From contig CANDBT010000025.1 of assembly GCA_947383005.1 (NCBI GenBank), positions 1-64,000 on the forward strand: 64,000 nt of DNA, written 5' to 3'. Below, one piece after another: positions 8,785 through 30,311 of this stretch. This DNA comes from an uncultured bacterium (GTDB lineage Bacteria; Bacillota; Clostridia; Lachnospirales; Lachnospiraceae). Position 1 is the stretch's first letter, and every line of letters begins with the position of its first letter. The notes under the pieces are model-generated. The model was not told the DNA's origin, ran no database searches, and saw only the letters and a program-made list of their open reading frames with translations. A program made the position numbers and the translations under genes.

Positions 8785-10014
8785 GTGCAAAAACAATTAT
8801 ATTTGTTTGGTGCAGGGGCCAATTGTGTGGGAACTATCAAGTTTTTCGGGAAAGAAATGATAAAGGCAATAATTGATAGTGATAAAAGGTTGCAGGGAAA
8901 CACTTTTGATGGTATACCTATTATACCATTACAGGATTATTTAGATACGAATTGTGGGGAAGTTGTGGTTGTTTCTGGATTTTACGCGTCAGAAAAAATC
9001 TCGGAAGTGTTAATTGAAAATAATATTAAAAATTTTTATATATGCCCATATATGCAAAATGGTTTTTATAAAAATGGAAAGGATATTGTGGAAAAATTAA
9101 ATTTATGCCAATATCCAATTATTTATTTTCAATCAAAACATCCCTTTGCGGAGATGATAGAGGAAGAATTGAAAAAAATGAACTATAATGGGAGCGTTTG
9201 TTATGCAGATAAAAATGAATTAAAAAAAGAAGAATCTGTATTTATAGTAACAAATTATGTTGAAAAAAGACAAATCACATATACTGATTATGGTAAGGTT
9301 ATCGATATAAATGAAATATATAGAAGCAAATATTCTTATCAAAATAATAAATTAGAGAAATTTAAGGATCGACATAAAGGAAAAAGATGTTTTGTTATCG
9401 GGAACGGACCAAGTCTTACATATAGAGACTTACAAAAATTACATGAAGAAAAAGAAATATGTTTTGGTGTGAACCGGATATATTTAGCTTTTCAGCATAC
9501 GGATTGGCGGCCTGACTATTATACGGCATGTGATTATTTTATGATAAAAAGAGATGCAAAAATAATAGAAGAATTATGTATGGAAAAATTTATCAGACAT
9601 CAATATGGGGAAGATTTTTTTAATAAAAAAGAGGGGATTTATGAATATGGCGGTTTATCAGCAGATAAGAAGGATTATCCATTTTCAAAAGATATTGTAA
9701 AAGGTGTTTATATTGGAAAAACCGTTGTATATGACGCTATCCAGATCGCAGCTTATATGGGGTTCTCAGAAATATATCTGTTGGGAGTAGATTTGACAGC
9801 GAATATGATAGCAGAGGCTGAGGGATCGCATTTTTATCATTCGCCAGATACAAATGAACGATTGCCAAAGGGTGAGCGGGATGAAAACTTAAAGGCCATA
9901 AAGAATGCCAGGATATATATGGAGTCCCGTGGGATGAGTTTGAAAAACGCGACAAGAAAAGCAGATTGGAATGAACTGGAAAAGGTAAACTTTGATAGTT
10001 TGTTTGGAGAGTAA
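8785..10014 (+). CDS. Rossmann module + DUF115/sialyltransferase-like (GNGPSL) protein
   Basis: GTG start behind GGAGGAATAAAC. Residues 1-100 are the locus-wide Rossmann module: LYLFGAGANCVG, then AIIDSDKR and GIPIIPL. Residues about 195-400 hold CFVIGNGPSL, VNRIYL, GKTVVYDAIQIA and EIYLLGVDLT. This pattern is shared by the DUF115/MptE-like group and resembles GT42 bacterial sialyltransferases (the IAGNGPSL and IYLSGIDF type). Placed next to an aldolase and a CMP-sugar synthetase, it could transfer a CMP-activated acid sugar. That role is inferred from neighbours and motif likeness only. The alternative is a pterin pyrophosphokinase-like fold with another activity. Confidence 0.75.
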   Translation: MQKQLYLFGAGANCVGTIKFFGKEMIKAIIDSDKRLQGNTFDGIPIIPLQDYLDTNCGEVVVVSGFYASEKISEVLIENNIKNFYICPYMQNGFYKNGKDIVEKLNLCQYPIIYFQSKHPFAEMIEEELKKMNYNGSVCYADKNELKKEESVFIVTNYVEKRQITYTDYGKVIDINEIYRSKYSYQNNKLEKFKDRHKGKRCFVIGNGPSLTYRDLQKLHEEKEICFGVNRIYLAFQHTDWRPDYYTACDYFMIKRDAKIIEELCMEKFIRHQYGEDFFNKKEGIYEYGGLSADKKDYPFSKDIVKGVYIGKTVVYDAIQIAAYMGFSEIYLLGVDLTANMIAEAEGSHFYHSPDTNERLPKGERDENLKAIKNARIYMESRGMSLKNATRKADWNELEKVNFDSLFGE

Positions 10015-11043
10015 ATGATGAAATATAATCTTTTAGATTGCACGCTTAGGGATGGGGGCTATATTTCAGGGTGGAAGTTTGATGATATAGTGATTAGGAA
10101 TATAATCAAAGATTTGATAGAATCTAATATGGATTATATTGAAGTGGGATATATTAATTCGGTAAAAAAATACAGCGGTAATACGACTCAGTTCGATACA
10201 ATTTCCCGTATCAATGATTTTTTGCCGCCGGACAGAAAAAATGCAGTGATATTGGCGATGGTTGATGTAGAGCAGTTCTTTTTAAAAGATATAGAAGCAC
10301 ATAGAAAAGGATATGTTGATGGCATACGGGTTGTATTTTATAAACACCAAATACGTCAGGCGCTGAAACTGGCTGAAGAAATAAAAAAAGCCGGATATAA
10401 ACTTTTTATCCAGCCAATGGTAACCATTGATTACACTATAGACGAGTACTCAAAATTAAGTTCTCTTATTGCAGAATTGGAACCATATGCAGTATCTATT
10501 GTTGATAGTTTTGGTTATATGATTAAAGAGGATTTTCGAAAGTATTTCAGAATATTAGATAATTTGCTGGAACAAAGTACAGTTATTGGATTTCATTCAC
10601 ATAATAATATGAATTTAGCTTTTATAACTGCCCAGGATATTTTAGAATATAATACAAAGAGAAAGCTGGTTATCGATTGTTCTTTATATGGAATGGGAAG
10701 GGGAGCCGGAAATTTAAATACAGAGCTAATTGCAAATTACTATAATTTGTTTTTTGGTGAAAAGTATAATTTGCATCTCTATTTGGAATTAATTAGCCGG
10801 TATATTATGCCAATTTATAAGAAAAAACAATGGGGATATTCACCATATCTTTTCTTGACGGGATTGAATCATTATCATCCTAATTTTGCCTGTTATTTAT
10901 TGGAAGAGCATCAGGAAGTGACGGTAGAACAGTTTGAAAAATTTTTAAAGACAATTCCCTTGGAATATAAAACAAAATGTAGGAAACCTTACGTGCTGGA
11001 GAAATGGGAGGAGTTTTTAAAGAAGGAGGAAAATGAGTGTTGA
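10015..11043 (+). CDS. HMGL-like (4-hydroxy-2-oxovalerate-type) aldolase
   Basis: DRE-TIM metallolyase family. LLDCTLRDGGY at residues 5-15 supplies the Arg and metal-binding Asp, and GFHSHNNMNLA supplies the metal-binding His-x-His pair and Asn. Family members join or split 4-hydroxy-2-oxo acids (pyruvate plus aldehyde) or related acyl-CoA compounds. Here it overlaps the CMP-sugar synthetase gene that follows. In this surface-polymer context it is likely biosynthetic, making a 2-keto-3-deoxy acid for CMP activation. There is no acylating dehydrogenase partner nearby, which argues against the catechol meta-cleavage role of MhpE. Confidence 0.8.
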   Translation: MMKYNLLDCTLRDGGYISGWKFDDIVIRNIIKDLIESNMDYIEVGYINSVKKYSGNTTQFDTISRINDFLPPDRKNAVILAMVDVEQFFLKDIEAHRKGYVDGIRVVFYKHQIRQALKLAEEIKKAGYKLFIQPMVTIDYTIDEYSKLSSLIAELEPYAVSIVDSFGYMIKEDFRKYFRILDNLLEQSTVIGFHSHNNMNLAFITAQDILEYNTKRKLVIDCSLYGMGRGAGNLNTELIANYYNLFFGEKYNLHLYLELISRYIMPIYKKKQWGYSPYLFLTGLNHYHPNFACYLLEEHQEVTVEQFEKFLKTIPLEYKTKCRKPYVLEKWEEFLKKEENEC

Positions 11044-11696
11044 AAAATCTTGTTGGGATAATGCCGATAAAATTAAATAACGAAAGGCTTCCAGGAAAAA
11101 ATATTAAATTATTGGGAGGCAAGCCATTGATCCAGTACGGATTGAGTACGCTTTTGAATGTGAAAAGATTAGATGAAATAGATGTTTTTTGTTCAGATAG
11201 CGCAATTGAAGATTATTTGATAAAGGGGATAAACTTTGTTAAAAGACCATGCTTTTTGGATTTGCCGACGTCAAATTTCACACAAATATTTGAAGAGTTT
11301 TATAAAACAGTAAAGGCGGATATTTATGTATATGCGCATGCTACGGCGCCTTTTATTAAAGCAGAAACTATTAACGAATGTATAGACGCTGTAATATCAG
11401 GAGAATATGATTCTGCTTTTACAGCAACTAAAATACAGGATTTTTTATGGAAAAATGGGCAGCCATTAAATTTTAAGAAAGATAATTTGCCGCGAAGCCA
11501 GGATTTAGAACCAATTTACCGTGAAACATCGGGAGTATATGTGTTTAAAAAAGAAGTATTTGATCAATGCCATGCGCGTATTGGTGAAAAACCATTTATA
11601 AAAGAAATTGATTATAAGGAAGCAATTGATATTAATACATCTCAAGATTTTGAATTAGCAGAATTGATTATTCAAAATATTAGGGAGAGGAATTAA
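11037..11696 (+). CDS. CMP-N-acylneuraminate cytidylyltransferase-like (NeuA-family) protein
   Basis: A 219-residue nucleotidyltransferase. GIMPIKLNNERLPGKNIKLLGGKPLI matches the NeuA/KdsB start (the AxIPARxGSKxxxxKN pattern, with the Arg and Lys conserved). VYAHATAPFI corresponds to the CTP/metal-binding segment. It would couple CTP to a 2-keto acid sugar giving a CMP-sugar. GTG 11037 lies behind AAGGAGGAAAATGA and overlaps the aldolase stop. No NeuB, NeuC or KdsA homologue is present in the window, so the acid may come from the aldolase just upstream. Confidence 0.82.
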   Translation: MLKNLVGIMPIKLNNERLPGKNIKLLGGKPLIQYGLSTLLNVKRLDEIDVFCSDSAIEDYLIKGINFVKRPCFLDLPTSNFTQIFEEFYKTVKADIYVYAHATAPFIKAETINECIDAVISGEYDSAFTATKIQDFLWKNGQPLNFKKDNLPRSQDLEPIYRETSGVYVFKKEVFDQCHARIGEKPFIKEIDYKEAIDINTSQDFELAELIIQNIRERN

Positions 11697-13205
11697 ATGA
11701 AAATTGTAAGTATGTACTTACCACAATTTTATGAATCAGAAGAAAATAATGAATGGTGGGGAAAGGGTTATACAGATTGGGTTGCTGTAAAAAGAGCAAT
11801 GCCTATTTTTAAAGGACATAACCAGCCAAGAGAACCTTTAGGGGACAGGTATTATAATTTGCTGGAAAAGGAAACTTTGATTTGGCAGTTAAAATTAATG
11901 AAGAAATATAATATATATGGACAATGTTTTTATCATTATTGGTTTAAAAATGGAAAAAGAATATTGGATAAACCGGCAGAGAATCTCTTGAAATGGAAAG
12001 ATATCCATATGCCGTTTTGTTTTTCTTGGGCAAATGAATCTTGGGTGCGTTCCTGGTCGGCTATTGTTGATTCAAACGTATGGGCACAAAAATTTGAACC
12101 TTCAAAAACCGGTGCGGAGGGTAATGGTGTTTTATTAGAGCAAGGATATGGTGGAAAATCTGCCTGGAAACAACATTTTGACTATTTGCTTCCTTTTTTT
12201 AAGGATGAGCGATATATAAAAATCCATGGGAAACCGGTTTTTATGTTCTATCGTTCTGATAATATTCCTTGTTTAACGGAAATGATAGATTGTTGGAACC
12301 AGTGGGGGAAGGATAGTGGATTTCCTGGGATTTATTGTATAGGGGGAAACGCTTCGTCAAAAAGAGCTTTAGATGCGGTATATTTCCACGCGACAGGAAG
12401 CATGTTTCCTCCAAATTATTATAAAACTGACAAATCTGTAAGGACAATTTCTTATGAGGAAGTTTGGAAATATATTATTGCACAGGGGAAAATGTCCGAA
12501 AAAGGGACGTATATTGGAGGAATTGTTGATTTTGACACAACTCCGCGGAAAGGGAAAAATGGAGTTGTAATTACAGGTTGCGATAGCTCTATATATGAAA
12601 AATATTTAAAAAAATTGCTGAACATAAATGAAAAATTAGGAAGTGAAATTACATTTATTAATGCGTGGAATGAATGGGGAGAAGGTATGTATTTGGAGCC
12701 AGACAAAAAGAATTCGTTTGCATTTTTGTCGGCAACAAAAAGAGCCTTAGAGACTTATGTGGATGAATATGAGGATGATGAAGAAAAAGACAGCGCAGAG
12801 CTTTTAAAGTTTTATAAAAATAGAATGGAACAGTATAAAAAAAATTGGCTGATTTTAGATCAATGGTTAAGAAGGAATGAGCAAAAAAGGCCGATAGCTG
12901 GAACTTTGAGCCGAATGGGAGTACATATAATTGCGATATATGGGATGGGTATTTTAGGCCAGCATTTGAGGGCAGCTTTGGAAGGATCGGATATAGTGGT
13001 AAAATACGCAATAGATTCCAGAAAGCAGGGGAATATAAAAGAAATTCCCGTTTTAGGGCTGGATGATGAATTCCCCGAAGTGGATGTTATTATTGTTAGT
13101 GTTGTATTTGAATTTGATAATATTGCCAAGGATTTGAAAAAGAGGACACATATTCCGGTGTGGTCATTAGAGGAAATACTATTCGAAGAGGAGGTTGCTG
13201 ATTAG
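11697..13205 (+). CDS. WbsX-family glycosyltransferase with C-terminal Rossmann module
   Basis: Residues 1-355 are a WbsX-type domain: MYLPQFYESEENNEWWG, YTDWVAVKRA, YGQCFYHYWF, PFCFSWANESW and FINAWNEWGEGMYLEP. The family is found in O-antigen and capsule loci; its mechanism is not established. A charged helix (about 355-390) leads to the locus-wide module (about 405-500): IIAIYGMGILGQHL, VKYAIDSRKQG, EIPVLGL, DVIIVSV. The stop overlaps the GTG of the next gene by one base. Codons are strongly AT-biased. Confidence 0.82.
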   Translation: MKIVSMYLPQFYESEENNEWWGKGYTDWVAVKRAMPIFKGHNQPREPLGDRYYNLLEKETLIWQLKLMKKYNIYGQCFYHYWFKNGKRILDKPAENLLKWKDIHMPFCFSWANESWVRSWSAIVDSNVWAQKFEPSKTGAEGNGVLLEQGYGGKSAWKQHFDYLLPFFKDERYIKIHGKPVFMFYRSDNIPCLTEMIDCWNQWGKDSGFPGIYCIGGNASSKRALDAVYFHATGSMFPPNYYKTDKSVRTISYEEVWKYIIAQGKMSEKGTYIGGIVDFDTTPRKGKNGVVITGCDSSIYEKYLKKLLNINEKLGSEITFINAWNEWGEGMYLEPDKKNSFAFLSATKRALETYVDEYEDDEEKDSAELLKFYKNRMEQYKKNWLILDQWLRRNEQKRPIAGTLSRMGVHIIAIYGMGILGQHLRAALEGSDIVVKYAIDSRKQGNIKEIPVLGLDDEFPEVDVIIVSVVFEFDNIAKDLKKRTHIPVWSLEEILFEEEVAD

Positions 13206-14890
13206 TGAAATATGCGATATATGGAGTAAATAGAATTGCCAAGGATTTTATGTACATATTTGATAAAACAGATATCGTTTGCTTTTATACAGACGGGGAA
13301 GAACAGGCTTGGATGGGTCTGCCTGTTTATAAAATTGATGATTGGTATAAAGTTGAGAAAAACTATGATCGGATCATAATTTGCGATATTGAAAAAGATG
13401 AAAAGAGAAAAAAACTGGAAAATATGGGATTGAAATATAAAGCTGATTTTCTGTATGAAGAAGATTTTTTTATGTCCTTAGACAGATATCCATTAAACTC
13501 ATGCGCAAAGAAAATGATTGCTTGGGGAGCCGGACGGCGTGCGGAGAAATTGGCTTATTTCTATGGGCTAGATAATATAGAGTTTTTTGTGGATTCAAAA
13601 GAACAGGGGTTATATTGGAAAAATAGCGGAAAGAAAATTTTGCTGCCGGATAAAGTTGATAGATGGGATAGCTATTTTGTTGTTATAACCGTTGCAAAAT
13701 CGGACTCTATTATTAAATCACTGGAAGAAAGAGGATTGATTCATTATCGGGATTATTGCACGCTGGGAGAATTATTAACCCAGCCTTCCTGGATGCTGAA
13801 GAAAACTATTTTTGACAAAAATTGTTACAATGTTGAGTGCCGGACAATTTTCAATCATGTAGAGTTAAACCAAACAGGAGAACTGCAGTGTTGCTGCGTA
13901 CCGTTTGTCATAGGGCGGATCGGTAATGTAGAGGAGGGTTCTATAGAAAGCATATGGACGGGGATTGTCCATAAAATAATGTGTTTGGCAATTAATAACC
14001 GTACATATTCGTTCTGTAATAGTGAAATGTGCCCGGTTTTTATCGGACGGGAAAGAAATGGGAAGATTGATTTAATAAATGAATATATGAATATAGAGGA
14101 TTTTCCAAGAAATTTGCTGGTAAATTTTGAAGATTCCTGTAATTTGCGATGCGAGTCTTGTAGGGATAAAGTTCAAATAGCCAATGGAAAAGAGTATGAA
14201 AAAAATATAAGGTATGCCGATCTTCTTATAGAAAAAGTACTTCCTCATGTCGAATTTATTATTATGGCTGGAACAGGAGAAGTTTTTGTAGGAAAAGGAT
14301 ATGAGAGAATGTATTTGAGTGATGCTATGAGGAAAGTTAAATGGATTCGGTTATTGACAAATGGGACGTTGTTTAATAAGCAAAACTGGGAAAAATTTTC
14401 TAAAAATAAGTTGGGGAAAATTTTTTTGACGGTATCCGTTGATGCCGCAACGAAAGAAACTTATGAAAAGCTTAGAAGAAATGGAAATTTTGATATATTG
14501 AGAGAAAATATGGAATTCGCTTCGCAACTAAGGAAAAGCGGAAAATTGTCGTATTTTAGAATGAATTTTGTTGTACAGAAAAAGAATTATCAGGAAATGC
14601 CATTGTTTGTCCAATGGGGAAAGCAATTAGGGGCAGACGAAGTGTTTTTTACTAAAATTTTGAATTATGGAACATATTCACAAGATGAATTTTTTGAAAT
14701 TAGCATGATGGAAGAGGATGGGATGACTCCCAAAAAAGAATTGGTTAAGATTTTGGATTTGCCAATTATGAAAGATGAAATCGTTGATTTAGGGACTATC
14801 CGCTATTCTCACGAACCAATAGGAATAGATTATATCGAAAACTATTATAAGTGGGAATTGGAAAGGAAGGTACCCCATCTATTTGAATAG
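13205..14890 (+). CDS. Radical SAM protein with two tandem N-terminal Rossmann modules
   Basis: Residues 1-95 (YAIYGVNRIAKDF) and 97-195 (MIAWGAGRRAEKL, FFVDSKEQG) are two copies of the locus module. Residues about 205-285 hold a cysteine cluster (LQCCCVPF, then CNSEMCPVF) like a SPASM/auxiliary Fe-S domain. Residues about 305-520 are radical SAM with CNLRCESC (CxxxCxxC) and MAGTGEV in place of the usual GGEP. The auxiliary domain thus precedes the SAM core, the reverse of the usual peptide-maturase order. The substrate is probably a sugar or its nucleotide-linked form, given the neighbours; nothing in the sequence names it. GTG start; GAGGAGG lies 11 nt upstream. Confidence 0.8.
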   Translation: MKYAIYGVNRIAKDFMYIFDKTDIVCFYTDGEEQAWMGLPVYKIDDWYKVEKNYDRIIICDIEKDEKRKKLENMGLKYKADFLYEEDFFMSLDRYPLNSCAKKMIAWGAGRRAEKLAYFYGLDNIEFFVDSKEQGLYWKNSGKKILLPDKVDRWDSYFVVITVAKSDSIIKSLEERGLIHYRDYCTLGELLTQPSWMLKKTIFDKNCYNVECRTIFNHVELNQTGELQCCCVPFVIGRIGNVEEGSIESIWTGIVHKIMCLAINNRTYSFCNSEMCPVFIGRERNGKIDLINEYMNIEDFPRNLLVNFEDSCNLRCESCRDKVQIANGKEYEKNIRYADLLIEKVLPHVEFIIMAGTGEVFVGKGYERMYLSDAMRKVKWIRLLTNGTLFNKQNWEKFSKNKLGKIFLTVSVDAATKETYEKLRRNGNFDILRENMEFASQLRKSGKLSYFRMNFVVQKKNYQEMPLFVQWGKQLGADEVFFTKILNYGTYSQDEFFEISMMEEDGMTPKKELVKILDLPIMKDEIVDLGTIRYSHEPIGIDYIENYYKWELERKVPHLFE

Positions 14891-14924
14891 GGATCTTTAG
14901 TTATATTAAATAGGGGAGATGGGA

Positions 14925-16166
14925 GTGAAAGTGGATATATCAGTAATTATTCCCCTTTACAAGGGTAGAAAATTTTGTGAAAACCTGTTAAGTATGCTGG
15001 AAAAAAATTGCTTATACCAGGATATGTTTAAAAAATGTAAAATAGAATTGATACTGGTAAATGACTATCCAGATGAAAAAATTTTAGTTGAAAAGAAGAA
15101 TTGGCATTTTAATATCCTCTTAATTGAACAGGAGAAAAATTTTGGGATACATCATTCGAGAGTAAATGGGATAAACCACGCCCGAGGAGAGTATATCATT
15201 ATGCTTGATCAAGACGACTTGGTTAGGGAAAATTGGCTTTATAGCCAATGGCATAAGATGGTGACAGATAATTCAGATTATTGTATTTGCAACGGATGGC
15301 TTGGCAGATTTAGGGTTTTATGGGAAGAAAAAACATTTGCTGGCAGAGTAAATGATTTAGATTATTATTTGTCAGTGAGAAATAATATATGTTCGCCAGG
15401 ACAAGTTATGATCAGGAAAAGAAGTATACCGCAGGAGTGGTTAGAGCACATCCAGAAATGTAATGGGGCTGATGATTATCTTTTATGGATTATGGCATTG
15501 AAGAAAAACAACCAGTTTTCATTGAATAAAGATTATTTATATTACCATACTCCGCAAAGGAATCCTGATTCTATTGGCGAGACCGAAATGCTGGAATCGA
15601 TTAAAGAGATGTCTGAATTATTGGATTTTATAGGATTATTGGAAAAGGAAGAATTATCGTTATTAAATAGGCAGATAGCAAGAAGAGAATATGCAAATTG
15701 TGGAATCCAGATGAAAACAACAGATGGGATAAATTCTGAAGATTGGAATTGGTTTAGTCGATATATAAAATTTCAAAAGATGTTTTATCTCATGTTAGAC
15801 TGGGTTAAAATAAAAAACCGAGGAATTAAGATCAGTGAATTCTTTAAGAAAAACAACTACTTGAATATAGCGATATATGGTATGGGCTATATAGGAGAAT
15901 GCCTTTATGATGAGCTAAAAGGAAGCGGTATCCAAGTAAAATACGGGATTGACCGTACGGCGAGGGATTTTAAAGGCGAATTGCCGATATACCGGATAGA
16001 AGATGAGTTGGAAAGGGTGGATATGATTGTTGTGACTGTGATGGAGAACACCAAAAATATTATTGATAAGTTAAAGCGTGACGGAGAATATCCGGTTATG
16101 GCGATTTCCGAATTGCTTATAGCATTGGGGGATAATTATACGAATGGAGAATATTATGATTCCTAA
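14925..16166 (+). CDS. Family 2 glycosyltransferase with C-terminal Rossmann module
   Basis: GT-A fold at residues 1-230: ISVIIPLYKG, LILVNDYPDE, a GIHHSRVNGINHARGEY segment, and LDQDDLV as the metal-binding DxD-type site. It should add a sugar from an NDP-sugar donor in the cytoplasm. The C-terminal part (about 315-412) is the locus module: LNIAIYGMGYIGECLYDEL, VKYGIDRTA, ELPIYRI, DMIVVTV. GTG 14925 is chosen because AGGGGAG at 14912-14918 gives proper spacing, while ATG 14919 would abut it. It overlaps the next gene by 11 bp. Confidence 0.85.
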   Translation: MKVDISVIIPLYKGRKFCENLLSMLEKNCLYQDMFKKCKIELILVNDYPDEKILVEKKNWHFNILLIEQEKNFGIHHSRVNGINHARGEYIIMLDQDDLVRENWLYSQWHKMVTDNSDYCICNGWLGRFRVLWEEKTFAGRVNDLDYYLSVRNNICSPGQVMIRKRSIPQEWLEHIQKCNGADDYLLWIMALKKNNQFSLNKDYLYYHTPQRNPDSIGETEMLESIKEMSELLDFIGLLEKEELSLLNRQIARREYANCGIQMKTTDGINSEDWNWFSRYIKFQKMFYLMLDWVKIKNRGIKISEFFKKNNYLNIAIYGMGYIGECLYDELKGSGIQVKYGIDRTARDFKGELPIYRIEDELERVDMIVVTVMENTKNIIDKLKRDGEYPVMAISELLIALGDNYTNGEYYDS

Positions 16167-17055
16167 AGTCGTTTTGTGGGGGCTAGGTTCGTTTTATAAT
16201 AAGTTTTACAATAATATTCGTTACTGTGAAAGCATGAGGCAATTCCAAGTTGTAGCGGTAACGGCTAAAAGCCTGCCTGTGGCTAAATTATTAGATGGTC
16301 ATTATGTGGTAAAACCAAAAGAGCTTGTTGGGTTAGATTTTCAATATATTATTATTTTAAATGAAGAGAATTATTTTGATATAGCAAATGAAGCAATTAA
16401 TGAATATGGAATATCTAAGGACAAATTAATCAGTTATAAAGTATTTTGGATTCCCAATTTAGATTTTAAAAAATATGTTTGTTTGAAAGAAAGTAACATT
16501 AGTATTATATCTAATAATTGCTGGGGAGGCATAGCATATTTTAGATTGGGATTGGAGTGTTTGTCCCCTTTTAAGAATTGTTTTTTGCTAGATTCGGATT
16601 ATCTTAAATTAATTAGATATTTGCCGGAATATCTGGCATCTTCATTAACTTTTTCGCACTGGGAAAATGATATCCATAGCGGTCAGCGCTATCCCGTGAT
16701 GGTTTTAGGAGAGGATGTGCATATTCATTTTAACCATGTAAATGACATTTCAGAAGCAACTTCCGGATGGGAAAGAAGAAAAAACAAATTGAATTGTAAC
16801 AATATTTTTGTTGAAATGTATACGGAGGATTCACAGACAGAAGAAGCATTTTCAAAGCTAACCCAATACGATAAAAAGATATGTTTTGTTCCATGGGAAA
16901 GCCAATATCATTGCTCTATGAAATTGAGATTGTATGACGGACAAAAAGAGTTTTACCAAACAGTTAATCGAAATGCAGGCGTAAGCGGATTGGAATATGA
17001 TTTGGTAGAACTTTTGTTGTATGGTAAAAAAATATTAAGATATGAAGAGGTGTAA
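16156..17055 (+). CDS. Rossmann module + DUF1919 exopolysaccharide protein
   Basis: Residues 1-105 are the locus module (KVVLWGLGSFYNKFYNNI, with a drifted glycine pattern). Residues about 110-285 match DUF1919: ISIISNNCWGGIAYFRLGLE, SPFKNCFLL, YPVMVLGEDVHIHFNHV, and ATSGWERRKNKLN. DUF1919 proteins occur in exopolysaccharide loci; their biochemical activity is unknown. ATG 16156 has GGAG at the right distance; an upstream in-frame ATG at 16144 lacks one. Confidence 0.8.
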   Translation: MIPKVVLWGLGSFYNKFYNNIRYCESMRQFQVVAVTAKSLPVAKLLDGHYVVKPKELVGLDFQYIIILNEENYFDIANEAINEYGISKDKLISYKVFWIPNLDFKKYVCLKESNISIISNNCWGGIAYFRLGLECLSPFKNCFLLDSDYLKLIRYLPEYLASSLTFSHWENDIHSGQRYPVMVLGEDVHIHFNHVNDISEATSGWERRKNKLNCNNIFVEMYTEDSQTEEAFSKLTQYDKKICFVPWESQYHCSMKLRLYDGQKEFYQTVNRNAGVSGLEYDLVELLLYGKKILRYEEV

Positions 17056-17062
17056 ACGTAAC

Positions 17063-19899: not shown

Positions 19900-20036
19900 C
19901 AGGGCAGGGGATATTGGATGCCTGGGCGGAAGAAAATAGTTACATTTTATATTCAGAGCATACTGATTTGCCAAATGATTGGGGACTGCAAAAATATGGG
20001 AACTATATTGGTAAATCATTTGGCTCATGGGTATAA
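19893..20036 (+). pseudogene. Possible 3' remnant of a lost gene
   Basis: A 47-codon open frame lies between two glycosyltransferase genes. It reads ILAGQGILDAWAEENSYIL, then LYSEHTDLPNDWGLQKY and ends GKSFGSWV-stop at 20034-20036. It has protein-like composition, no ribosome binding site, and is closed by an upstream TGA. It overlaps the first codons of the next annotated frame. It looks like the C-terminus left after deletion or replacement of a gene; the family is not recognised. Confidence 0.3.
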
Positions 20037-20068
20037 CAGCAAACGAAGATAAAAGGTATATAGATGTT

Positions 20069-22695: not shown

Positions 22696-22728
22696 TTGCC
22701 GTAAACGGCGGAAAGGCTGAATAGTACA

Positions 22729-25023
22729 GTGGTATATTCTTTTGATGTTTTTGATACCTTAATAACAAGAAGCACGGTTACACCGACAGGTATTTTTGCC
22801 GTTATGCAGAGGCTGATGGGAGACAACGGCGAGCTGGACGGTTTTGTGAAGAATCATTTTTATGAGCTGCGGATAGGGGCAGAGCAGGTGGCCCGGAATA
22901 CATACTGCAGGCAAGGAATTGAAGATGTTACTTTGGAACAGATATATAGCGTTTTAGTAAACGGGCATAAAATTTCACCAAGCCAGGCTGTTTATTTGCA
23001 GAGTTTGGAGAGACAGACAGAAATTGATTATGTATACGGAATTCCTCAAAACATAGCCCGTTTGAAGGGGCTGGTAGAAAACCATCAGAAAGTGCTTTTG
23101 ATTTCCGATATGTATTTGGATGCAGATACAATACGGAAGATGCTGATAAAAGCAGATCCGGTTTTTGAAGAAATCCCTCTGTATGTATCTTCGGATATAG
23201 AGAAAAAGAATAAATATTCAGGAAATCTATTCAGGTTAGTAAAGGAAAAAGAACATCTGGAATATCATGACTGGATACATTTTGGCGATAATGTGCATTC
23301 GGATTTTGAAGTGCCTAAAAGTTTGGGGATTTCCTGTGAATTGTATTTGCCGGAACAGTTGCAGGATATAGAGAAGAACTATTTCAAAAATGGGGATAGT
23401 GATGCAGGAAAGCAGTTAATGCTGGGCGCAGTAAAGCTTGCACGCCTTCGGGGAGAAAAAAATAACGCTTATATTTTGGGATGCACGATAGGAGGGCCGA
23501 TGCTCTGTCCTTATGTCAAGTGGCTGTTGGAGGATTGTGTAAAGAGAGGGATACAACGGCTTTATTTTATAGCAAGAGACGGTTATATATTGAAAGAGAT
23601 CGCAGATATATGGATAAGACAGGAGAATTTGCCGGTATTCACCCGATATATTTATGGCTCAAGGAAGGCATGGAGAATTCCGGATACAGAGAATCTTAAA
23701 AATGAGATAACGGCAATTTTTGAGGGGGCTTATAAGGACAGAATTTTCGGCCTCTCGGATATGGCCGATTTTTTTCAGGTGGAAGAACAGGCATTGAAAG
23801 AATTTCTTCCGGAAAAACTATGTGACAAGCAGTTGGTTTGGAATATACCTGTCGTAACAATAGTTCTAAATAGTCTCTTAAATCATCCTGATTTTCTGAA
23901 TCAGCTTTGCCATATTTATGATTCGAAAAGAAAATTGCTCATAGAATATTTGCAGCAGGAAGTAGACGTCCATGATGACAAATTTGCTTTTGTAGATTTG
24001 GCAGGAACAGGTCTTACACAGGAATTTTTGGCAAAAGCATTGGGATGTTTTTATAAAGGAAAAGTAAAAAATTATTTTTACCGTTTGGATCAAATAAACA
24101 ATGGTATATGTGATTATTATGTGTTTTATCCGAATTTTATTCCTCATTATGTATTGCTGGAAATGCTGTGCAGAGCACCTCATGAACAGACAATCGGGTA
24201 TCAAAAAGCAGAGAGCGGAGATGTTTTGCCGGTTTTTTCTAATGTAGATGCCCAGGCGATAATTAATCACCAAGTACCCCAATTTATCGAGGGAGCTAAA
24301 CAATTTGCCGGGATTTACGAAAAAGTATTGAATAAAAATCGAGAGTTTTCTGGTGTGATTAATTGCATATTACCCTATTTAAACTACATTTATAACGAGT
24401 CGGATGAAATACTGCTGGATTATTTTGGGGACATGCCCGATATGCTGACAGGGCGGGAAAAACAGGTAATGTTATATGGCCCGAAACTGTCGGATAAAGA
24501 AATTAAGAAAATATTTTGGTATAGAGAAAACGTAGCGCCTGAGTATTTTTATCGGGGTTCTTCGCTGAAATATTCGTTACTGAGATGCAGCGGGAAGCAA
24601 AAAAGGAAAATAGAGCAATATAAAAAATTTTACCATTCGCCATGGGGGAAATTTTGCCGGAAAACTTACACATGTTTTTGCGGCAAATCTGATTTTCGTA
24701 CGGCAAATGTGTTTGATTGTATCCGGCAGAATATTATTATCTATGGGGCGGGCAAAGTAGGACAGCGTTTTTATCGTCAGATCACAGGTAAAGATAAAGT
24801 AAATGGGATTCGATATTCGTCCTCGGTAGTATTGTGGGTAGACAGAAATTATCAGGAATATCAAAGTGAAGGGATGCCGGTAGCCAGTCCGTCAGAGGTT
24901 ATTAAACATGATTATCAGCAATTGATTATAGCAATAGCAAAGAAGGAAACAGCAGACAATATTCGAAAATATCTGTTGGAGTTAGGGGTAAGGGAAGAGA
25001 AAATTTTTTGGCTTAGACAGTAA
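22729..25023 (+). CDS. HAD-superfamily protein with C-terminal Rossmann module
   Basis: GTG start. Residues 1-225 are a HAD hydrolase: YSFDVFDTLITR (nucleophile and acid/base Asp), LLISDMYLD (motif II) and HFGDNVHSDFEVPKSLGI (motif IV). Residues 230-640 are a long uncharacterised region with IQRLYFIARDGYILKEI and FVDLAGTGLTQEFL, seen in large HAD proteins of polysaccharide loci. The locus module starts at about residue 668: NIIIYGAGKVGQRFY, VVLWVDRNYQ, GMPVASP, LIIAIAKKE. It probably dephosphorylates a sugar phosphate or acts in transfer; the role of the middle region is unknown. Confidence 0.75.
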   Translation: MVYSFDVFDTLITRSTVTPTGIFAVMQRLMGDNGELDGFVKNHFYELRIGAEQVARNTYCRQGIEDVTLEQIYSVLVNGHKISPSQAVYLQSLERQTEIDYVYGIPQNIARLKGLVENHQKVLLISDMYLDADTIRKMLIKADPVFEEIPLYVSSDIEKKNKYSGNLFRLVKEKEHLEYHDWIHFGDNVHSDFEVPKSLGISCELYLPEQLQDIEKNYFKNGDSDAGKQLMLGAVKLARLRGEKNNAYILGCTIGGPMLCPYVKWLLEDCVKRGIQRLYFIARDGYILKEIADIWIRQENLPVFTRYIYGSRKAWRIPDTENLKNEITAIFEGAYKDRIFGLSDMADFFQVEEQALKEFLPEKLCDKQLVWNIPVVTIVLNSLLNHPDFLNQLCHIYDSKRKLLIEYLQQEVDVHDDKFAFVDLAGTGLTQEFLAKALGCFYKGKVKNYFYRLDQINNGICDYYVFYPNFIPHYVLLEMLCRAPHEQTIGYQKAESGDVLPVFSNVDAQAIINHQVPQFIEGAKQFAGIYEKVLNKNREFSGVINCILPYLNYIYNESDEILLDYFGDMPDMLTGREKQVMLYGPKLSDKEIKKIFWYRENVAPEYFYRGSSLKYSLLRCSGKQKRKIEQYKKFYHSPWGKFCRKTYTCFCGKSDFRTANVFDCIRQNIIIYGAGKVGQRFYRQITGKDKVNGIRYSSSVVLWVDRNYQEYQSEGMPVASPSEVIKHDYQQLIIAIAKKETADNIRKYLLELGVREEKIFWLRQ

Positions 25024-25089: not shown

Positions 25090-26130
25090 ATGGAAAAATT
25101 CACCAATACAACTAAAAATATTTATGACCATCTGCAGGATAGACAGTCAAAATTTTTCTTTGAAAACAGGCTGCTATATACCTTGACTGGTGATTACCAA
25201 TATATCCAGCGGATAATAGCGGTGTTGCCGCAAAAAAAAGAGTTAGATCGAGCGATCGAATTTTGTAAAAGTCAGACAAATAACGTGGTGATTTACGGAG
25301 CAGGCAATGATCTTTCAATTTTATCGGATTTGTATCCTGATTTTCCTATCCGCCTTATCTGCGACAGCAGCCAGGCCAAACAAAAAGCTGGGTGGCGCGG
25401 GATTCCGGTGATGTCCCCTGACGAGTTGATTAAGATAAAAAATAATATATACGTCGCTATAAATACTTCCGCATACCACAAAGAAATCGCTCAATTTTTA
25501 GGGAAAAACGGTTTCCCCAAAGAGAGGATTATCAACCTGGGCGCGATAACCGATGCCTTGTATTCCAGGCAATACTTTGACAGGGATATTATGGTTCCCC
25601 GATCGGGAGAGGTATTTGTTGATGGCGGATGTTTTAACTGCAATACGGACAGGGAATTTGTAAAATGGTGTTCCGGAAATTACGAAAAGATATATGCTTT
25701 TGAACCCGATCCGGCAAATTATCAATATTGTTTGAAACAATGCGAAAAAGAGGAAATCCGGAATATTGAAATTTATGATAAGGGATTATGGGATAAGGAG
25801 GCAGAGCTGTCCTTTGAGGAAACCGGGGGGCAGGGTTCAAAAATAGGAGAGGGTACTGCCGTTATTTCTGCGACATCTATTGACACCGTTGCAGGAGATC
25901 ATCCGATATCGTTTATTAAGCTGGATGTGGAGGGGGCAGAGTTGAGGGCATTGCAGGGAGCAGAGCGGATCATTTGCCGGGATCATCCGCGTATGGCAGT
26001 TTGCGTATATCACAAACCGCAGGATATTATTGAAATACCGGAATATATTTTGAAGTTGGATGACCGCTATAAACTTTATATCCGACATTATCAAATGAGC
26101 CCGTGTGAAACGGTAGTGTACGCTTTGTAA
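25090..26130 (+). CDS. Rossmann module + FkbM-family methyltransferase
   Basis: Residues 1-60 are a helical lead. Residues 62-155 are the locus module: NVVIYGAGNDLSIL, RLICDSSQAK, GIPVMSP, IYVAINTSAYH. Residues 170-340 are FkbM methyltransferase: VFVDGGCFNCNTD, YAFEPDPANY, ATSIDTVAGDHPISFIKLDVEGAE, ALQGAERII. It likely O-methylates a sugar or chain end using SAM. The module sits upstream of the catalytic domain, unlike in most glycosyltransferases here. Composition is intermediate between the AT-rich core and the GC-richer right flank. Confidence 0.85.
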   Translation: MEKFTNTTKNIYDHLQDRQSKFFFENRLLYTLTGDYQYIQRIIAVLPQKKELDRAIEFCKSQTNNVVIYGAGNDLSILSDLYPDFPIRLICDSSQAKQKAGWRGIPVMSPDELIKIKNNIYVAINTSAYHKEIAQFLGKNGFPKERIINLGAITDALYSRQYFDRDIMVPRSGEVFVDGGCFNCNTDREFVKWCSGNYEKIYAFEPDPANYQYCLKQCEKEEIRNIEIYDKGLWDKEAELSFEETGGQGSKIGEGTAVISATSIDTVAGDHPISFIKLDVEGAELRALQGAERIICRDHPRMAVCVYHKPQDIIEIPEYILKLDDRYKLYIRHYQMSPCETVVYAL

Positions 26131-26207
26131 ATCCTTTAGCGCCTTTCTTTAAACAGTAAAAAACAAAAATAAAACGTCGCTTATTTGGAGGAAATATCAT
26201 CAACAAC

Positions 26208-26957
26208 ATGAATAATCATAAAGTAATACAACAACCAAAAAAGTATAAGCGGGGATATGTCCCCGGCGTGTTTGATCTGTTCCATATCGGGCATTTGAAC
26301 TTAATCCGACGGGCAAAAGAGCAGAGCGAATATTTGCTGGCAGGAGTTTTGACGGATGAGTTGGTTGTACATTTTAAAGGGAAAAAGCCCTGTATCCCTT
26401 TCGAGGAACGGATAGCTATTGTTGCGGCTTTGAGGGACGTTGACCAGGTGGTCAAGGTGGATTTTTCCAACACAATTAAAATGGATGCCTGGAAAATGTA
26501 CCATTATGATGCGTATTTTTCAGGGGATGATCATGGGAGTGAATGGGATGAGGAAAGAAAAGCTCTTCAGTCTGTCGGTTCCGATATCGTATTTCTGTCT
26601 TACACCCAAGGAACCAGCTCCACATGGATCCGCCAGGAGCTCCAGGAGCAAAAAAGGAAGGAGCGGCTGTATCTGTTTGGGGCAGGAAGAATCGGCCAGC
26701 GGACGATAAGGCAGATGCGGCTGGAAGGCAGGGACGAGGAGTGGGAAATTGCCGGTTTTTTGGATAATCAGCGTGAAAAACGGCTGACCCGTGTGGATGG
26801 GTTGCCGGTATACGGTCCAGAGGATTTGCGGACTCTGGAACGGGAAGACAGTTTTACTGTGGCAGTCACGATGAAGGATAAAGAAGCTGCTTATAAACAG
26901 CTTACCAGCCTGGGGCTGGAAGGGCAGTTGCGGCTTGTGGACGCCCAAAATCTGTGA
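26208..26957 (+). CDS. TagD-like cytidylyltransferase with C-terminal Rossmann module
   Basis: Residues 12-145 are a cytidylyltransferase (GVFDLFHIGH; late YTQGTSSTWIRQ). Residues 150-248 are the locus module: LYLFGAGRIGQRTI, IAGFLDNQREK, GLPVYGPEDL, FTVAVTMKD. It is closely related to the enzyme at 6066 but has the extra module and GC-richer codons. It would supply a CDP-linked building block. A GGAGG at 26186-26190 is 17 nt from the ATG, which is long. Confidence 0.86.
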   Translation: MNNHKVIQQPKKYKRGYVPGVFDLFHIGHLNLIRRAKEQSEYLLAGVLTDELVVHFKGKKPCIPFEERIAIVAALRDVDQVVKVDFSNTIKMDAWKMYHYDAYFSGDDHGSEWDEERKALQSVGSDIVFLSYTQGTSSTWIRQELQEQKRKERLYLFGAGRIGQRTIRQMRLEGRDEEWEIAGFLDNQREKRLTRVDGLPVYGPEDLRTLEREDSFTVAVTMKDKEAAYKQLTSLGLEGQLRLVDAQNL

Positions 26958-27302
26958 TGCAATGTTTTATAAGATCCTACGCTATTTCCCATTGGGTTCT
27001 GGAACAAATATTATCAATCTGCGCGACTATGGGGCGGAAAGCCCTGCTATAGGGCGAAAAGCTGGTTCTGCAGACCGGCTGTGCCGTTGAAGGCTCTTAT
27101 CGTGCTAATGTATATATAGCATATTGATTTAATGAAACGCCTTCTTTTTCCGCTTCCATCGCTAAAATTGTTTTGAGAAGCAATATTGATCAATATGGAA
27201 GTTTATTTAGGCCGCTTATCAATGATTTTTGAGGAAGCGCCAGAATTTTTGCAGGGCATCCCAAAATCAAATATATCACGGAATAGGTGGTGAAGGAGGG
27301 GT
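26958..27302. other. 345-bp gap with short open frames only; right edge of the AT-rich cassette
   Basis: No convincing gene. Two short plus-strand frames look protein-like but have no ribosome binding site: 26962-27090 (MFYKILRYFPLGSG start, 42 codons) and 27195-27293 (MEVYLGRLSMIFEEAP start, 32 codons). They may be remnants of deleted genes. No terminator hairpin or strong promoter was seen. Confidence 0.4.
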
Positions 27303-30300
27303 ATGTCAACATTATACAAGCAAGAAAATGCTCCATCCGCCCGTCCGCTTTCACAAACGGATCGGGCGGTTTTGGAATACATGGATTTGGTAAAAAAGGA
27401 TTATTATGATGAAGAAATCTCTGAGGACAGCCGTTTCCCGGTGTGGTATCAATTGTCCAGCCTGAGAACGGGTTTATTAAGCTGGTATGAATTTAAACAA
27501 GAGGCGAGAGTGCTGGAAATCGGCGCCGGCTTTGGAGCCTTGACGGGACTTTTGTGCGACCGGTGCAGTTATGTGGCAGCAACGGAACGTTCGGTTGTCC
27601 GTGCGGAGGCTTTAGCCAGAAGATGGGAAGATAAGGGGAATTTGCATGTATATGCCGGCGAGTGGAGTGAGAGAAAATGGGAAAAGCCTTTTGATTATAT
27701 TATCCTTACCGGGATTTTGGAGCGGGCTTGCGGAGGATCGAAAAACCGGGAAGATTATGTTGAATATTTGAAGAAAATCTTCGCGCTTCTGAAAAAAGAC
27801 GGGATTTTGCTGCTGGCAGCAGATAACCGTTTGGGCCTTAAATATTTTTGTGGTGCCAGGGAATCTCATGGCGGTAACGCTTTTGAGGGGATAAACCATT
27901 ATCCCAATGGTACCCGGGGATATTCCTTTGACCGGGCAGAACTTAAAAGTATCCTTGCCAGGGCGGGGTTTGGCGATATGCAGTTTTATTATCCCCTGCC
28001 GGATTATAAGATGCCGCAGCTTATATATTCAGACAACTACCTGCCAAAGAAGAATATAAAAGAGCGGCTGATCCCTTACTATGAGAACCACAATTCCCTG
28101 GTGGCAATGGAAAATGAGTTATATGATGATGTAATTGAAAACGGGGTTTTTCCTTTTTTTGCCAATTCTTTTTTGATTGAGTGCAGCCAGATGGAGACGG
28201 GGGAAAGCGAAGAGGAAGGAAAGCTGTGCCAGGTGGTTTACGCGGCGGTTTCCACAGACCGGGGGAGGGGAAAAAGCTATGTGACTGCCATCAAAAAGGG
28301 TAAAACCGTGACAAAAACACCTCTGTTTGAGGAGGGAAAGGCCAGCGCCAGACAGTTATTTTCCCATATAGAAGACTTGAAAGCCCATCAGATCCCGGTT
28401 GTGGAACATACGCTGCTTGCGGATGGGAGCCTGCGGCTTCCTTATGTCCCATGGCCAACGCTGTCGAACTATATCAAGGAAGTGATTAAAGAAGACCCGG
28501 GGAAATTCCTGCAGATTGTTGACCAGATATACGCGTATATCCTTGCCTCCTCGGAGCGGGCGCCGGATTCGGAAAATGCGTTGTTAAAGAGGATAGCGTT
28601 GCCAAAGCAGATAAAATTGCAAGGGGCATCCGCAGGGGGCGCCTCTTCGGGGAATCCTGCCCCAGGGAATCCTGCCCCGGGGAATCCTGCCTCGGAGAAT
28701 CCTGCCCCGGGAAATCCCGTTCCGGAAGATCCGTCCCTGGAGGCTCCCGCCCTGGATTTTGGCCCCATACTGAAAAAAGCGTATATGGAGCTGATCCCGC
28801 TGAATTGTTTTTATCATCCGCAGACGGGGGAGTTCCTCTATTTTGATCAGGAATTTGTCCGGGAAAATTATCCGGCCAAGTATGTGCTGTTCCGGGCGAT
28901 TCATTATATTTATTGTTTTACGCCGGATGGGGAGCGGTATTATCCCCGGCAAAAGCTTATCCGCCGGTATGGGATGGAAGATACCTGGGACATTTATCAG
29001 GAAGAGGAAAACCGGTTTTTGGATCAGGTGCGCAATCACAAAAAATACGGGCAGTTTTACCGGTGGGCGTCAGTCACCAGGGAAAAGATACAGGAAAATA
29101 TAAAAAGGCTGCGATCGGAAGAGGAGGTTATTGCCGATTATAAAATATCCGACAAAATGAAAAAGATATGGAAGGTGGAGTTGTCTTTGCTGGCGGAAGT
29201 TGACCGCATTTGCAAAAAATATGGGTTTCGGTATTTTTTGGTCCATGGGAGCCTTTTGGGTGCGGTGCGGCATAAAGGTTTTATTCCATGGGATGACGAT
29301 TTGGATATTGCCATGCCGAGAAAGGATTATGACGGTTTCCTGAAAGCGGCAGAAAAAGAGCTGGCAGCTCCGTTGTCCCTTCATACGCCGGAGACGGAAA
29401 AAGACATGTTTTGGGGAGGGTTTGCCCGGGTCAGGAATGCCATGACTACAGGAATTGAAGCCAGGGATTTGAATCATAAGGGGAATTTGGGAATTTGGAT
29501 CGATATTCTTCCGCTGGATGTTTGTACGATGGATGAAGCCTTGTTTGAAAAAAAGAAAAAGGAAATCCGACGCTGCCATCGGTTACTTTTGGCTAAGATT
29601 TATGGGAATGATTATCCGTCCTATTCCGATATGAAGCCGTGCCAGTGGAAGATGTATAAGTTTTTGTCTTGTTTTTACAGCCATGACAGGCTGTGCCGGA
29701 TGCTGGACAGGGCTATGCGGCGGTATACGGATAAGGATTCGGAGGATGTGGCCTTTTTTTCTGGTTATTATATGCACAGAAGGCTTAACGCTGCCGATTT
29801 CCAGTCGGTATCGTTTCTTGAATTCGAACAGCAACAGGTCCCTGTTCCGGCGGGATATGATAATTACCTGTTTATGTCTATGGGTAAGGATTACCGGAAG
29901 TATCCGCCAGAGGACGAGCGGAAACCAAAACATACCGGGATTTTTGATCCGGAAAAGCCTTACGGCGAATATCAGCGGATGCTGACAGGCATGTTTGAGG
30001 ATATCCGGGGGAAGAAAATTATTATTTTTGGGGCGGGGATGATGTTTGAGGACTATATGAAGAAATGGGGGGGCCGGTACCGACCGGATTTTCTGACGGA
30101 TAATGATGAGCACAAGTGGGGCCGGCAGAGAATGGGTATCCCGGTAAGGCCGCCCAAACAGATATTGGAAGTGCCGGAAGAAAAAAGGAGGGTGATTATC
30201 TGCAGTTTCTATTATAAAGAAATTGAAAGGCAATTGGCCCAAATGGGAATAAAGGATTACCGGGTTTATGTACAGCATGTGGATTGGATCATAAGGGCGG

Positions 30301-30311
30301 AAAACCAATAG
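27303..30311 (+). CDS. Methyltransferase-LicD-Rossmann module fusion protein
   Basis: A 1002-residue multidomain protein. Residues 45-215 are a SAM methyltransferase (VLEIGAGFGALTGLL, then YIILTGILE). Residues 215-430 continue the family-specific extension. Residues 440-486 are a Pro/Gly/Ala low-complexity linker built from 15-bp repeats. Residues 625-800 are LicD/fukutin-type: YFLVHGSLLGAVRHKG and PWDDDLDIAMPR, the nucleotidyl-fold DxD metal site. The locus module ends the chain (about 900-995: KIIIFGAGMMFEDY, FLTDNDEHK, GIPVRPP). LicD proteins move phosphocholine or similar groups from CDP donors onto cell-wall sugars, matching the CDP chemistry of the locus. The methyltransferase could modify the same group or a chain end. 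Confidence 0.82.
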   Translation: MSTLYKQENAPSARPLSQTDRAVLEYMDLVKKDYYDEEISEDSRFPVWYQLSSLRTGLLSWYEFKQEARVLEIGAGFGALTGLLCDRCSYVAATERSVVRAEALARRWEDKGNLHVYAGEWSERKWEKPFDYIILTGILERACGGSKNREDYVEYLKKIFALLKKDGILLLAADNRLGLKYFCGARESHGGNAFEGINHYPNGTRGYSFDRAELKSILARAGFGDMQFYYPLPDYKMPQLIYSDNYLPKKNIKERLIPYYENHNSLVAMENELYDDVIENGVFPFFANSFLIECSQMETGESEEEGKLCQVVYAAVSTDRGRGKSYVTAIKKGKTVTKTPLFEEGKASARQLFSHIEDLKAHQIPVVEHTLLADGSLRLPYVPWPTLSNYIKEVIKEDPGKFLQIVDQIYAYILASSERAPDSENALLKRIALPKQIKLQGASAGGASSGNPAPGNPAPGNPASENPAPGNPVPEDPSLEAPALDFGPILKKAYMELIPLNCFYHPQTGEFLYFDQEFVRENYPAKYVLFRAIHYIYCFTPDGERYYPRQKLIRRYGMEDTWDIYQEEENRFLDQVRNHKKYGQFYRWASVTREKIQENIKRLRSEEEVIADYKISDKMKKIWKVELSLLAEVDRICKKYGFRYFLVHGSLLGAVRHKGFIPWDDDLDIAMPRKDYDGFLKAAEKELAAPLSLHTPETEKDMFWGGFARVRNAMTTGIEARDLNHKGNLGIWIDILPLDVCTMDEALFEKKKKEIRRCHRLLLAKIYGNDYPSYSDMKPCQWKMYKFLSCFYSHDRLCRMLDRAMRRYTDKDSEDVAFFSGYYMHRRLNAADFQSVSFLEFEQQQVPVPAGYDNYLFMSMGKDYRKYPPEDERKPKHTGIFDPEKPYGEYQRMLTGMFEDIRGKKIIIFGAGMMFEDYMKKWGGRYRPDFLTDNDEHKWGRQRMGIPVRPPKQILEVPEEKRRVIICSFYYKEIERQLAQMGIKDYRVYVQHVDWIIRAENQ
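28651..28728 (+). repeat. 15-bp in-frame repeats (Asn-Pro-Ala-Pro-Gly)
   Basis: About five units based on AATCCTGCCCCGGGG, encoding repeated NPAPG or NPASE. They form a flexible linker between the methyltransferase and LicD halves of the host protein. GC-rich and multiple-of-three, as in the other in-gene repeats of this locus. Confidence 0.85.

Follow-up and report, generated by a model that had tools for sequence, protein, structure and literature searches.

A Rossmann-like module recurring on predicted surface-glycan enzymes of a Lachnospiraceae bacterium: a candidate nucleotide-binding accessory domain

Fourteen module copies in a fifteen-gene run

The stretch analysed here, called the window, comprises positions 1 to 64,000 of contig CANDBT010000025.1 (assembly GCA_947383005.1), from an uncultured bacterium of the Lachnospiraceae. 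Its central feature is a run of 15 open reading frames (ORFs; named below by their first position), all on the + strand between 8785 and 30311. A module of about 95 residues occurs once or twice in 13 of them, 14 copies altogether. An earlier note, made from the letters of the window, had claimed that one module recurs in thirteen proteins with unrelated catalytic domains, and the partner names given by Pfam are about the same as those it had assigned. The claim is borne out: a profile built from the remaining 13 copies recovers each of the 14 in turn (leave-one-out), most weakly module 9 (ORF 20027-21370; E 0.0057). Pairwise identity is low (12-25% against module 1), and the copies on the WbsX-type protein 11697 and the GT2 protein 14919 (modules 2 and 5) share 42% identity over 84 residues while sitting on unrelated enzymes. 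In the following list, E-values marked A2 come from the A2 profile, leave-one-out values are marked separately, and I and II denote two subfamilies of the module.

8785..9060, + strand: module 1, N-terminus of an MptE-like protein (ORF 8785-10014); A2 E 1.0e-15, leave-one-out 1.5e-9
12816..12920, + strand: pre-module segment of WbsX 11697 (residues 374-408), part of the subfamily II unit; aligns together with the module to the stand-alone protein of locus L177
12921..13181, + strand: module 2 (subfamily II), C-terminus of a WbsX-type glycosyltransferase (ORF 11697-13205); A2 E 4.8e-14, leave-one-out 2.4e-7; a separate protein in L177
13205..13471, + strand: module 3, first tandem copy, N-terminus of a radical SAM protein (ORF 13205-14890), with a drifted loop (GxN); A2 E 3.5e-15
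13499..13777, + strand: module 4, second tandem copy of the same radical SAM protein (ORF 13205-14890); A2 E 1.2e-14
15783..15851, + strand: pre-module segment of GT2 14919 (residues 289-311), part of the subfamily II unit, from alignment to the stand-alone form
15852..16118, + strand: module 5 (subfamily II), C-terminus of a GT2 (ORF 14919-16166); A2 E 4.4e-15; 42% identity to module 2
16153..16449, + strand: module 6, N-terminus of a DUF1919 protein (ORF 16144-17055); PF22674 E 6.8e-14, A2 E 1.6e-11; solved relative 2g6t
17054..17329, + strand: module 7, N-terminus of a GT4 (ORF 17042-18442); A2 E 2.2e-19
19585..19866, + strand: module 8, C-terminus of a GT2 (ORF 18529-19899); A2 E 5.7e-16
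21068..21352, + strand: module 9, C-terminus of a GT2-like protein (ORF 20027-21370), without the beta-2 Asp; A2 E 1.2e-7
22372..22668, + strand: module 10, C-terminus of a GT2 (ORF 21352-22695), without the beta-2 Asp; A2 E 6.9e-15
24718..25020, + strand: module 11, C-terminus of a HAD-type protein (ORF 22729-25023); A2 E 8.9e-18; PF22674 E 2.2e-4, under cut-off
25270..25551, + strand: module 12, ahead of an FkbM methyltransferase domain (ORF 25090-26130); A2 E 1.3e-18
26652..26948, + strand: module 13, C-terminus of a TagD-type cytidylyltransferase (ORF 26208-26957); A2 E 6.4e-17; PglD_N sub-threshold
30003..30284, + strand: module 14 (subfamily I), C-terminus of a methyltransferase-LicD protein (ORF 27303-30311); A2 E 2.9e-22
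6066..6503, + strand: TagD-type cytidylyltransferase without module, a natural control; 47% identity to the catalytic domain region of 26208 (145 positions aligned)
10015..11043, + strand: HMGL-like ORF within the run, no module found by Pfam and A2 profile search
11037..11696, + strand: CMP-sugar-synthetase-like ORF within the run, no module found by Pfam and A2 profile search

Loci, partners and separate forms

A permissive search of the window's own genome gave 30 matching places: those of the 14 window copies, another 14 in further loci (C5, C4 and C16), one in Rex and one in a CapD-type protein. All but the last two lie in loci that we judged by eye to be of glycan type (28/30), as expected from the link to surface-polymer loci drawn by the earlier note. 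Copies are also clustered in other genera and families, with at least 11 places in 23 kb of G041 and several each in G059, G051, G176, G210, G263, G108 and G168 (G176 and G210 share a genus). A motif of subfamily I was then scanned over public genomes (at least 118 stretches) and viral contigs (18 stretches), and the loci were sorted solely by whether the motif itself falls within a module. Among the matches listed, it does so in 105 of 136 loci, and in the 102 genome loci of this kind 151 of 497 other ORFs carry further copies, as against 1 of 82 ORFs in the 16 genome loci with the motif outside a module; since ORFs of one locus are not independent, the fairer test is that by locus, in which a further module gene occurs in 73/102 module loci and in 1/16 chance-match loci (Fisher p 7e-7). 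In the three viral loci with a module, none of 28 other ORFs carries a further copy; the viral contigs L270, L271 and L272 each encode a protein of 336-350 residues with an N-terminal module. Control glycan loci, fetched via PglD_N and CoA_binding_3 in the same order, showed the module in 1/77 frames and 1/32 loci, the single match (L303) being probably an adjoining CapD-type gene; in the same comparison, the loci of the stand-alone alignment A7 overlapped partly (24/64 frames). Co-occurrence of many copies is thus a feature of certain glycan loci, not of all.

Taxonomically, the 97 module genome loci among the matches listed comprise 79 from Bacillota (33 Lachnospiraceae, 9 Paenibacillaceae), 11 from six other phyla and 7 to which no taxonomy was assigned. 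A set of 121 copies was drawn from 33 loci picked at places with several or strong matches, after leaving out L131 and L145, which nearly duplicate L130 and L139, the Rex loci L051 and L099 and the CapD-type loci L053, L096 and L146; L170 was additionally left out before 363 proteins were pooled. Given this choice of loci, and motif counts that are lower bounds, the counts of partners and taxa are no unbiased census.

The 363 pooled proteins fall into 88 partner clusters (60 of them single proteins) made at a phmmer threshold of 1e-8, which may split or merge families; 21 proteins are stand-alone modules and ten carry two copies, six of these in close tandem. Judged by Pfam tallies that cover the 25 commonest of 46, 38 and 32 families, the identified partners among the matches listed appear to be mostly surface-glycan enzymes. 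The partner families in these tallies and in scans of single proteins include GT2, GT4, GT8, sugar-binding DXD (GT32-type), WbsX, RgpF, Caps_synth, DUF4422, MptE-like, GT-D and GT56; methyltransferases (FkbM, TylF and others), radical SAM, pyruvyl-, acetyl- and sulfotransferases and polysaccharide deacetylase; and CDP-glycerol transferase, hexapeptide proteins, TupA-type ATP-grasp, LicD, cytidylyltransferases, HAD and asparagine-synthase-like proteins. For four partner types, each represented by one protein, the tie to glycans is less plain: an APH-type kinase, DUF1796, a citrate-lyase-ligase type and an F420-dehydrogenase-beta type. A catalytic glycosyltransferase domain model named for clostridial toxins also matches 4 of 75 (best 9e-8) beside GT8- and DXD-type models, which we take as GT-A-fold likeness. 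The largest partner group is a GT2-led cluster of 99 members. Module position mostly follows the partner, being C-terminal in 30/30 members of the GT2 cluster in the first set, and C-terminal in 82, N-terminal in 16 and internal in one member of the pooled, partly merged cluster.

Closely related copies sit on different enzymes. Subfamily I (15 copies, 10 loci) is found in ten partner clusters and once as a stand-alone protein; subfamily II, with 12 copies in 8 loci, is found in five partner clusters and as stand-alone proteins. The top-scoring relative of the copy on LicD 27303 is borne by a TIM-barrel isomerase-like protein of another genus. Conversely, 123 of 663 module-free ORFs in module loci are homologous to module partners, and the window itself holds two TagD-type proteins, 26208 with and 6066 without the module, whose catalytic parts are 47% identical. 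Judged by sequence, these enzyme types would thus manage their chemistry without the module, which appears dispensable for at least one catalytic domain, that of TagD.

The module also exists as a protein of its own. In 7 of the 21 stand-alone proteins (alignment A7), all of subfamily II type, a hydrophobic N-terminus is followed by a conserved Trp-containing segment and then by the module, and a counterpart of the Trp-containing stretch precedes the fused modules of WbsX 11697 and GT2 14919; the profile of this form matches 15 of 120 genomes of the family (one per genus), fused forms counted. In L177, a stand-alone module gene overlaps a module-free WbsX gene. Residues 1-352 of WbsX 11697 match the module-free WbsX of L177 (38%, 3e-91) and residues 374-496 match the adjoining stand-alone protein (33%, 8e-21), and the tandem radical SAM neighbour is conserved there as well (45%). 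By these alignments, the window WbsX is a fused form of a pair that is split elsewhere. Fused WbsX occurs in at least five other genera besides the window, and G353, a genome with a fused WbsX, has a second split pair as well, in L342. Pyruvyl-transferase-like genes likewise overlap stand-alone copies in L048 and L215, with a weaker link to a fused form in L086 (26%, 7e-11). No stand-alone copy was found among the searched window ORFs, and by hydropathy all three stand-alone copies of the window's own genome lack the hydrophobic start, so that a putative membrane anchor would belong to some loci and not be a rule.

Several neighbouring genes deserve mention in their own right. Within the run, the HMGL-like, aldolase-type gene overlaps the CMP-sugar-synthetase-like gene (10015-11696), relatives of the two occur in 6 and in 9 of the loci, and the product of the pair may be an unusual CMP-activated acid sugar. 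Upstream, the window encodes a metallophosphoesterase fused to a glycerophosphodiester phosphodiesterase at the edge of the glycan locus (63-1991), a GFO/IDH/MocA oxidoreductase fused to a cytidylyltransferase domain (2000-3358) and a 901-residue protein (3368-6073) that has no Pfam match at E<=1 and relatives in 9/136 module loci; by eye, the latter looks helical at its start, transferase-like in the middle and propeller-like towards the end. Elsewhere, two adjoining large proteins (939 and 1159 residues; L209:1100-7441) have two module matches each. By eye, module loci lie near flagellar hook-associated-like genes at L248:5947-6204 and L084:196-1524, and NeuB-like genes occur in 15 module loci; some of these may be flagellin glycosylation islands.

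Place among Rossmann-like domains

Profile searches place the copies in a small Rossmann-like superfamily that includes Rex, PglD_N and the cytoplasmic domain of CapD and WbaP. Against solved chains, the 14-copy window profile matches 3nkl (a domain deposited as UDP-D-quinovosamine 4-dehydrogenase), Rex, VioB and 2g6t, and an 81-copy profile matches 3nkl (1.7e-10), Rex (1.7e-9), 2g6t (a DUF1919 protein; 2.4e-6), VioB (2.5e-6) and WbaP (1e-5). In profile-profile comparison, the 121-copy set reaches Rex at 98.7%, PglD_N at 98.5%, CapD at 98.4% and the domain of the large phosphoglycosyl transferase (PGT) at 96.4%, as against 37.9% for SDR and 10% for GFO/IDH among Rossmann controls. The 14-copy profile gives 98.4% for Rex, 97.7% for PglD_N and 96.8% for CapD; its controls stand at 13.2% for SDR and 80.1% for GFO/IDH, the latter control consisting of two sequences, and the subfamily II profile scores 51.6% against SDR.

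Five known domains are close enough to invite comparison. C2185-like_N (PF22674, solved as 2g6t) matches 11 of 81 copies at E<0.01 and has the DUF1919 protein 16144 as a full member (52.4 bits, cut-off 27 bits), whereas the other 13 window copies fall under the cut-off, ORF 22729 reaching 21.9 bits and the others giving no match at E<=1. The unit is thus partly known already, as the N-terminus of one protein type, which is what the Pfam name denotes. PglD_N (PF17836) matches 14 of 81 copies and Methyltransf_14 (PF08484), the C-terminal domain of sugar C-methyltransferases, 8 of 81 at the same threshold, supporting a kinship that the earlier note had offered as a guess. No window copy reaches the cut-off of PF17836 (23.4 bits; only ORF 26208 is listed, at 17.9 bits) or of PF08484 (23.5 bits; ORF 25090 at 16.3 and ORF 17042 at 13.7 bits), and Pfam finds no hexapeptide acetyltransferase, the fusion partner of PglD_N, in the 13 window proteins. 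Unlike Methyltransf_14, the window copies sit on other partners, and C-methyltransferase-like proteins are found by eye among the pooled partners (L138-L140). Rex, whose NAD-binding domain is nearest by profile-profile comparison, differs in its N-terminal DNA-binding domain, for which the 13 window proteins show no Pfam match; among the 10 of 13 window proteins scanned with NCBIfam, models for Rex match in ORF 26208 alone, within its module. Finally, the domain of unknown function (DUF) of WbaP, PglF and CapD (CoA_binding_3, PF13727) is, like the module, an accessory domain of the same superfamily in surface-glycan pathways, but it follows a four-helix membrane bundle in two enzyme classes, whereas the module is mostly terminal or stand-alone and occurs in many; the PF13727 cut-off (25 bits) is reached by none of the 14 window copies, with only ORF 26208 listed (13 bits).

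Whether the copies form one clade, which the earlier note had named as support for its reading, is a question to which the comparisons give a mixed answer. Subfamilies I and II score 66-69 against each other, below the scores of subfamily I with Rex (80) and PglD_N (75). A tree of 104 rows and 92 columns has a backbone without resolution, with Rex, CapD and PglD inside the bush and the Rex rows in a group of their own (support 90). With all 64 module rows constrained to a single clade, the tree improves by 30 log units on the quick unconstrained search, and the AU test does not reject this arrangement (p-AU 0.83). We regard the module, by these sequence comparisons, as one superfamily and possibly as one clade.

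A nucleotide-binding accessory domain and its rivals

The best conserved columns over 121 copies include Gly10 (96%), Asp34 (85%) and Gly12 (82%), and the glycine loop and beta-2 Asp are kept in most of the larger partner groups. The full set is present in 10 of the 14 window copies and in 205 of 275 pooled copies that were found without the search motif. Such conservation favours a ligand, and it is consistent with the nucleotide-type pocket that the earlier note had read from the glycine loop. A study of WbaP reports that its DUF, a nucleotide-binding domain common to two unrelated enzymes, is stabilised in soluble form by UMP, UDP and UTP and destabilised by UDP-Gal, that full-length WbaP is inhibited by UMP with an IC50 of 4.1 uM, and that most contacts of the WbaP dimer lie in the DUF; the authors propose UMP feedback through this domain, and feedback of the same kind for PglF-like dehydratases (PMC10942596). 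For a large PGT, another study describes a response regulator that activates the enzyme by promoting dimer formation (PMC12802240). Together with the conserved pocket, these reports favour a reading of the module as an accessory domain without catalytic function, which binds a nucleotide and regulates or assembles the glycan enzyme that carries it; our confidence in this reading is evenly balanced. The glycine-loop and beta-2-Asp pocket would bind a nucleotide, perhaps a pyrimidine one, free or in a nucleotide sugar (UMP, UDP or a UDP-sugar, for example), and the bound state would be passed to the attached enzyme, by dimerising or shifting it, with a change in its activity or oligomeric state. 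In this way, the enzymes of one surface-polymer pathway would answer to one common nucleotide signal, and copies that have lost the pocket would keep a structural role.

Several observations weigh against this reading. The pocket set is incomplete in 4 of the 14 window copies, and part of it is missing from 70 of the 275 pooled copies that lack the search motif and from 7 of the 98 that have it; among DUF4422-type partners (pooled cluster 4), the beta-2 Asp is kept in only 4 of 9 and the first glycine in 7 of 9, and the pocket is often lost from their N-terminal modules. FkbM, radical SAM, HAD and sulfotransferase partners have no obvious use for a pyrimidine nucleotide. Rex, the nearest well-known sensor, binds NAD(H) and not UMP. 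The 81-copy profile also matches other Rossmann chains, of dihydrodipicolinate-reductase type (2.1e-6) and TrkA (1.7e-5). The large-PGT domain, represented by three sequences, is reached at 74% by the window profile and at 5% by subfamily II, and WbaP is absent from the Protein Data Bank (PDB) matches of the 14-copy window profile, so that the link to the WbaP DUF is weaker than those to Rex, PglD_N and CapD. In addition, the regulatory role of that DUF is itself a proposal of its authors (PMC10942596).

The main rival to regulation is assembly: the modules would dimerise through a common face and gather the enzymes into a metabolon, to which stand-alone subfamily II copies with a hydrophobic start would provide membrane anchors. 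The many copies per locus, the hydrophobic N-termini and Trp-containing stretch shared with the fused modules of WbsX and GT2, the WbsX proteins that are fused in some genomes and split in others, and the dimerisation of the WbaP DUF (PMC10942596) all speak for it. So does the greater likeness of same-locus copies to each other than to copies from different loci of one genome (median score 43 against 36, p 2e-7; the window's own genome dominates), with 23 of 121 nearest neighbours coming from the same locus (6.1 on average and at most 18 with shuffled labels), beside 25 of 121 that have the same partner (8.0 on average and at most 21 when shuffled). However, same-locus copies on different partners resemble each other no more than copies from different genomes do (median score 43 in both cases, p 0.62), which leaves no clear locus-wide docking code, and a locus-specific code was set aside as unsupported. 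Neither was a hub gene common to the loci seen, the commonest module-free cluster (epimerase-like by eye) occurring in 41 of 136 loci among the matches listed; the window ORFs searched hold no stand-alone copy, those of its own genome lack the hydrophobic start, and the presumed membrane segments are only modestly hydropathic (1.25-2.7 by one method, 19-residue window). The gathering of enzymes suggested by the earlier note is thus kept alive as a general interface by the split and fused pairs and the hydrophobic N-termini, and finds no clear support in a locus-wide form; overall we think assembly unlikely, though the strongest of the alternatives. Less likely still is a combination of the two ideas, in which membrane-tethered stand-alone modules and enzyme-borne modules would pair through one fold, dozens of unrelated glycan enzymes would be exchanged in a surface-polymer complex by means of a common plug and one nucleotide pool would set complex formation.

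Two further accounts concern the pocket and the family itself. In PglD_N, and likewise in the C-terminal domain of C-methyltransferases that act on sugars, a nucleotide sugar is probably held by its nucleotide handle; the module, akin to both, could grip the nucleotide end of such a substrate while its partner modifies the sugar, as would suit the many methyl-, pyruvyl-, acetyl- and sulfotransferases among the partners. Yet the largest partner group is GT2-led, and GT2 enzymes bind their donor within their own catalytic domain; such a handle is not what TagD, LicD and CDP-glycerol-type partners work on, and TagD 6066 does without the module, all of which makes substrate holding improbable, the least likely of these alternatives in our estimate. 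That several Rossmann-like domains were recruited independently and merely resemble one module would fit the bush-like tree and the distance between subfamilies I and II; the recovery of all 14 window copies, the better fit of one clade and the presence of one subfamily on unrelated enzymes run counter to it, and we consider it distinctly unlikely.

Taken as a whole, the interpretation of the earlier note is partly supported. The fold is already known, as is one Pfam family that covers part of the module. In the open-access literature, judged by titles and the starts of abstracts, we recognised no description of the module as a shared part of glycan enzymes, nor did we meet there its spread over many enzyme families in special loci, its stand-alone forms or its split and fused pairs; at least three papers there name DUF1919, each of them once. 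Accessory control of surface-glycan synthesis has been proposed for two enzyme classes, which have the DUF of WbaP and PglF in common. Should dozens more classes bear a related fold, some of them without a nucleotide-sugar substrate, control or assembly of whole pathways by an interchangeable part becomes testable with small soluble domains. The module also offers a handle for annotation: terminal extensions of many glycan enzymes, at either end, can be traced to it, in this sample chiefly from Lachnospiraceae and Paenibacillaceae, and the number of copies sets such glycan loci apart as a kind of their own. The sequence evidence points to a part, shared among the bacterial machineries that make surface sugars, which may serve their control or assembly.

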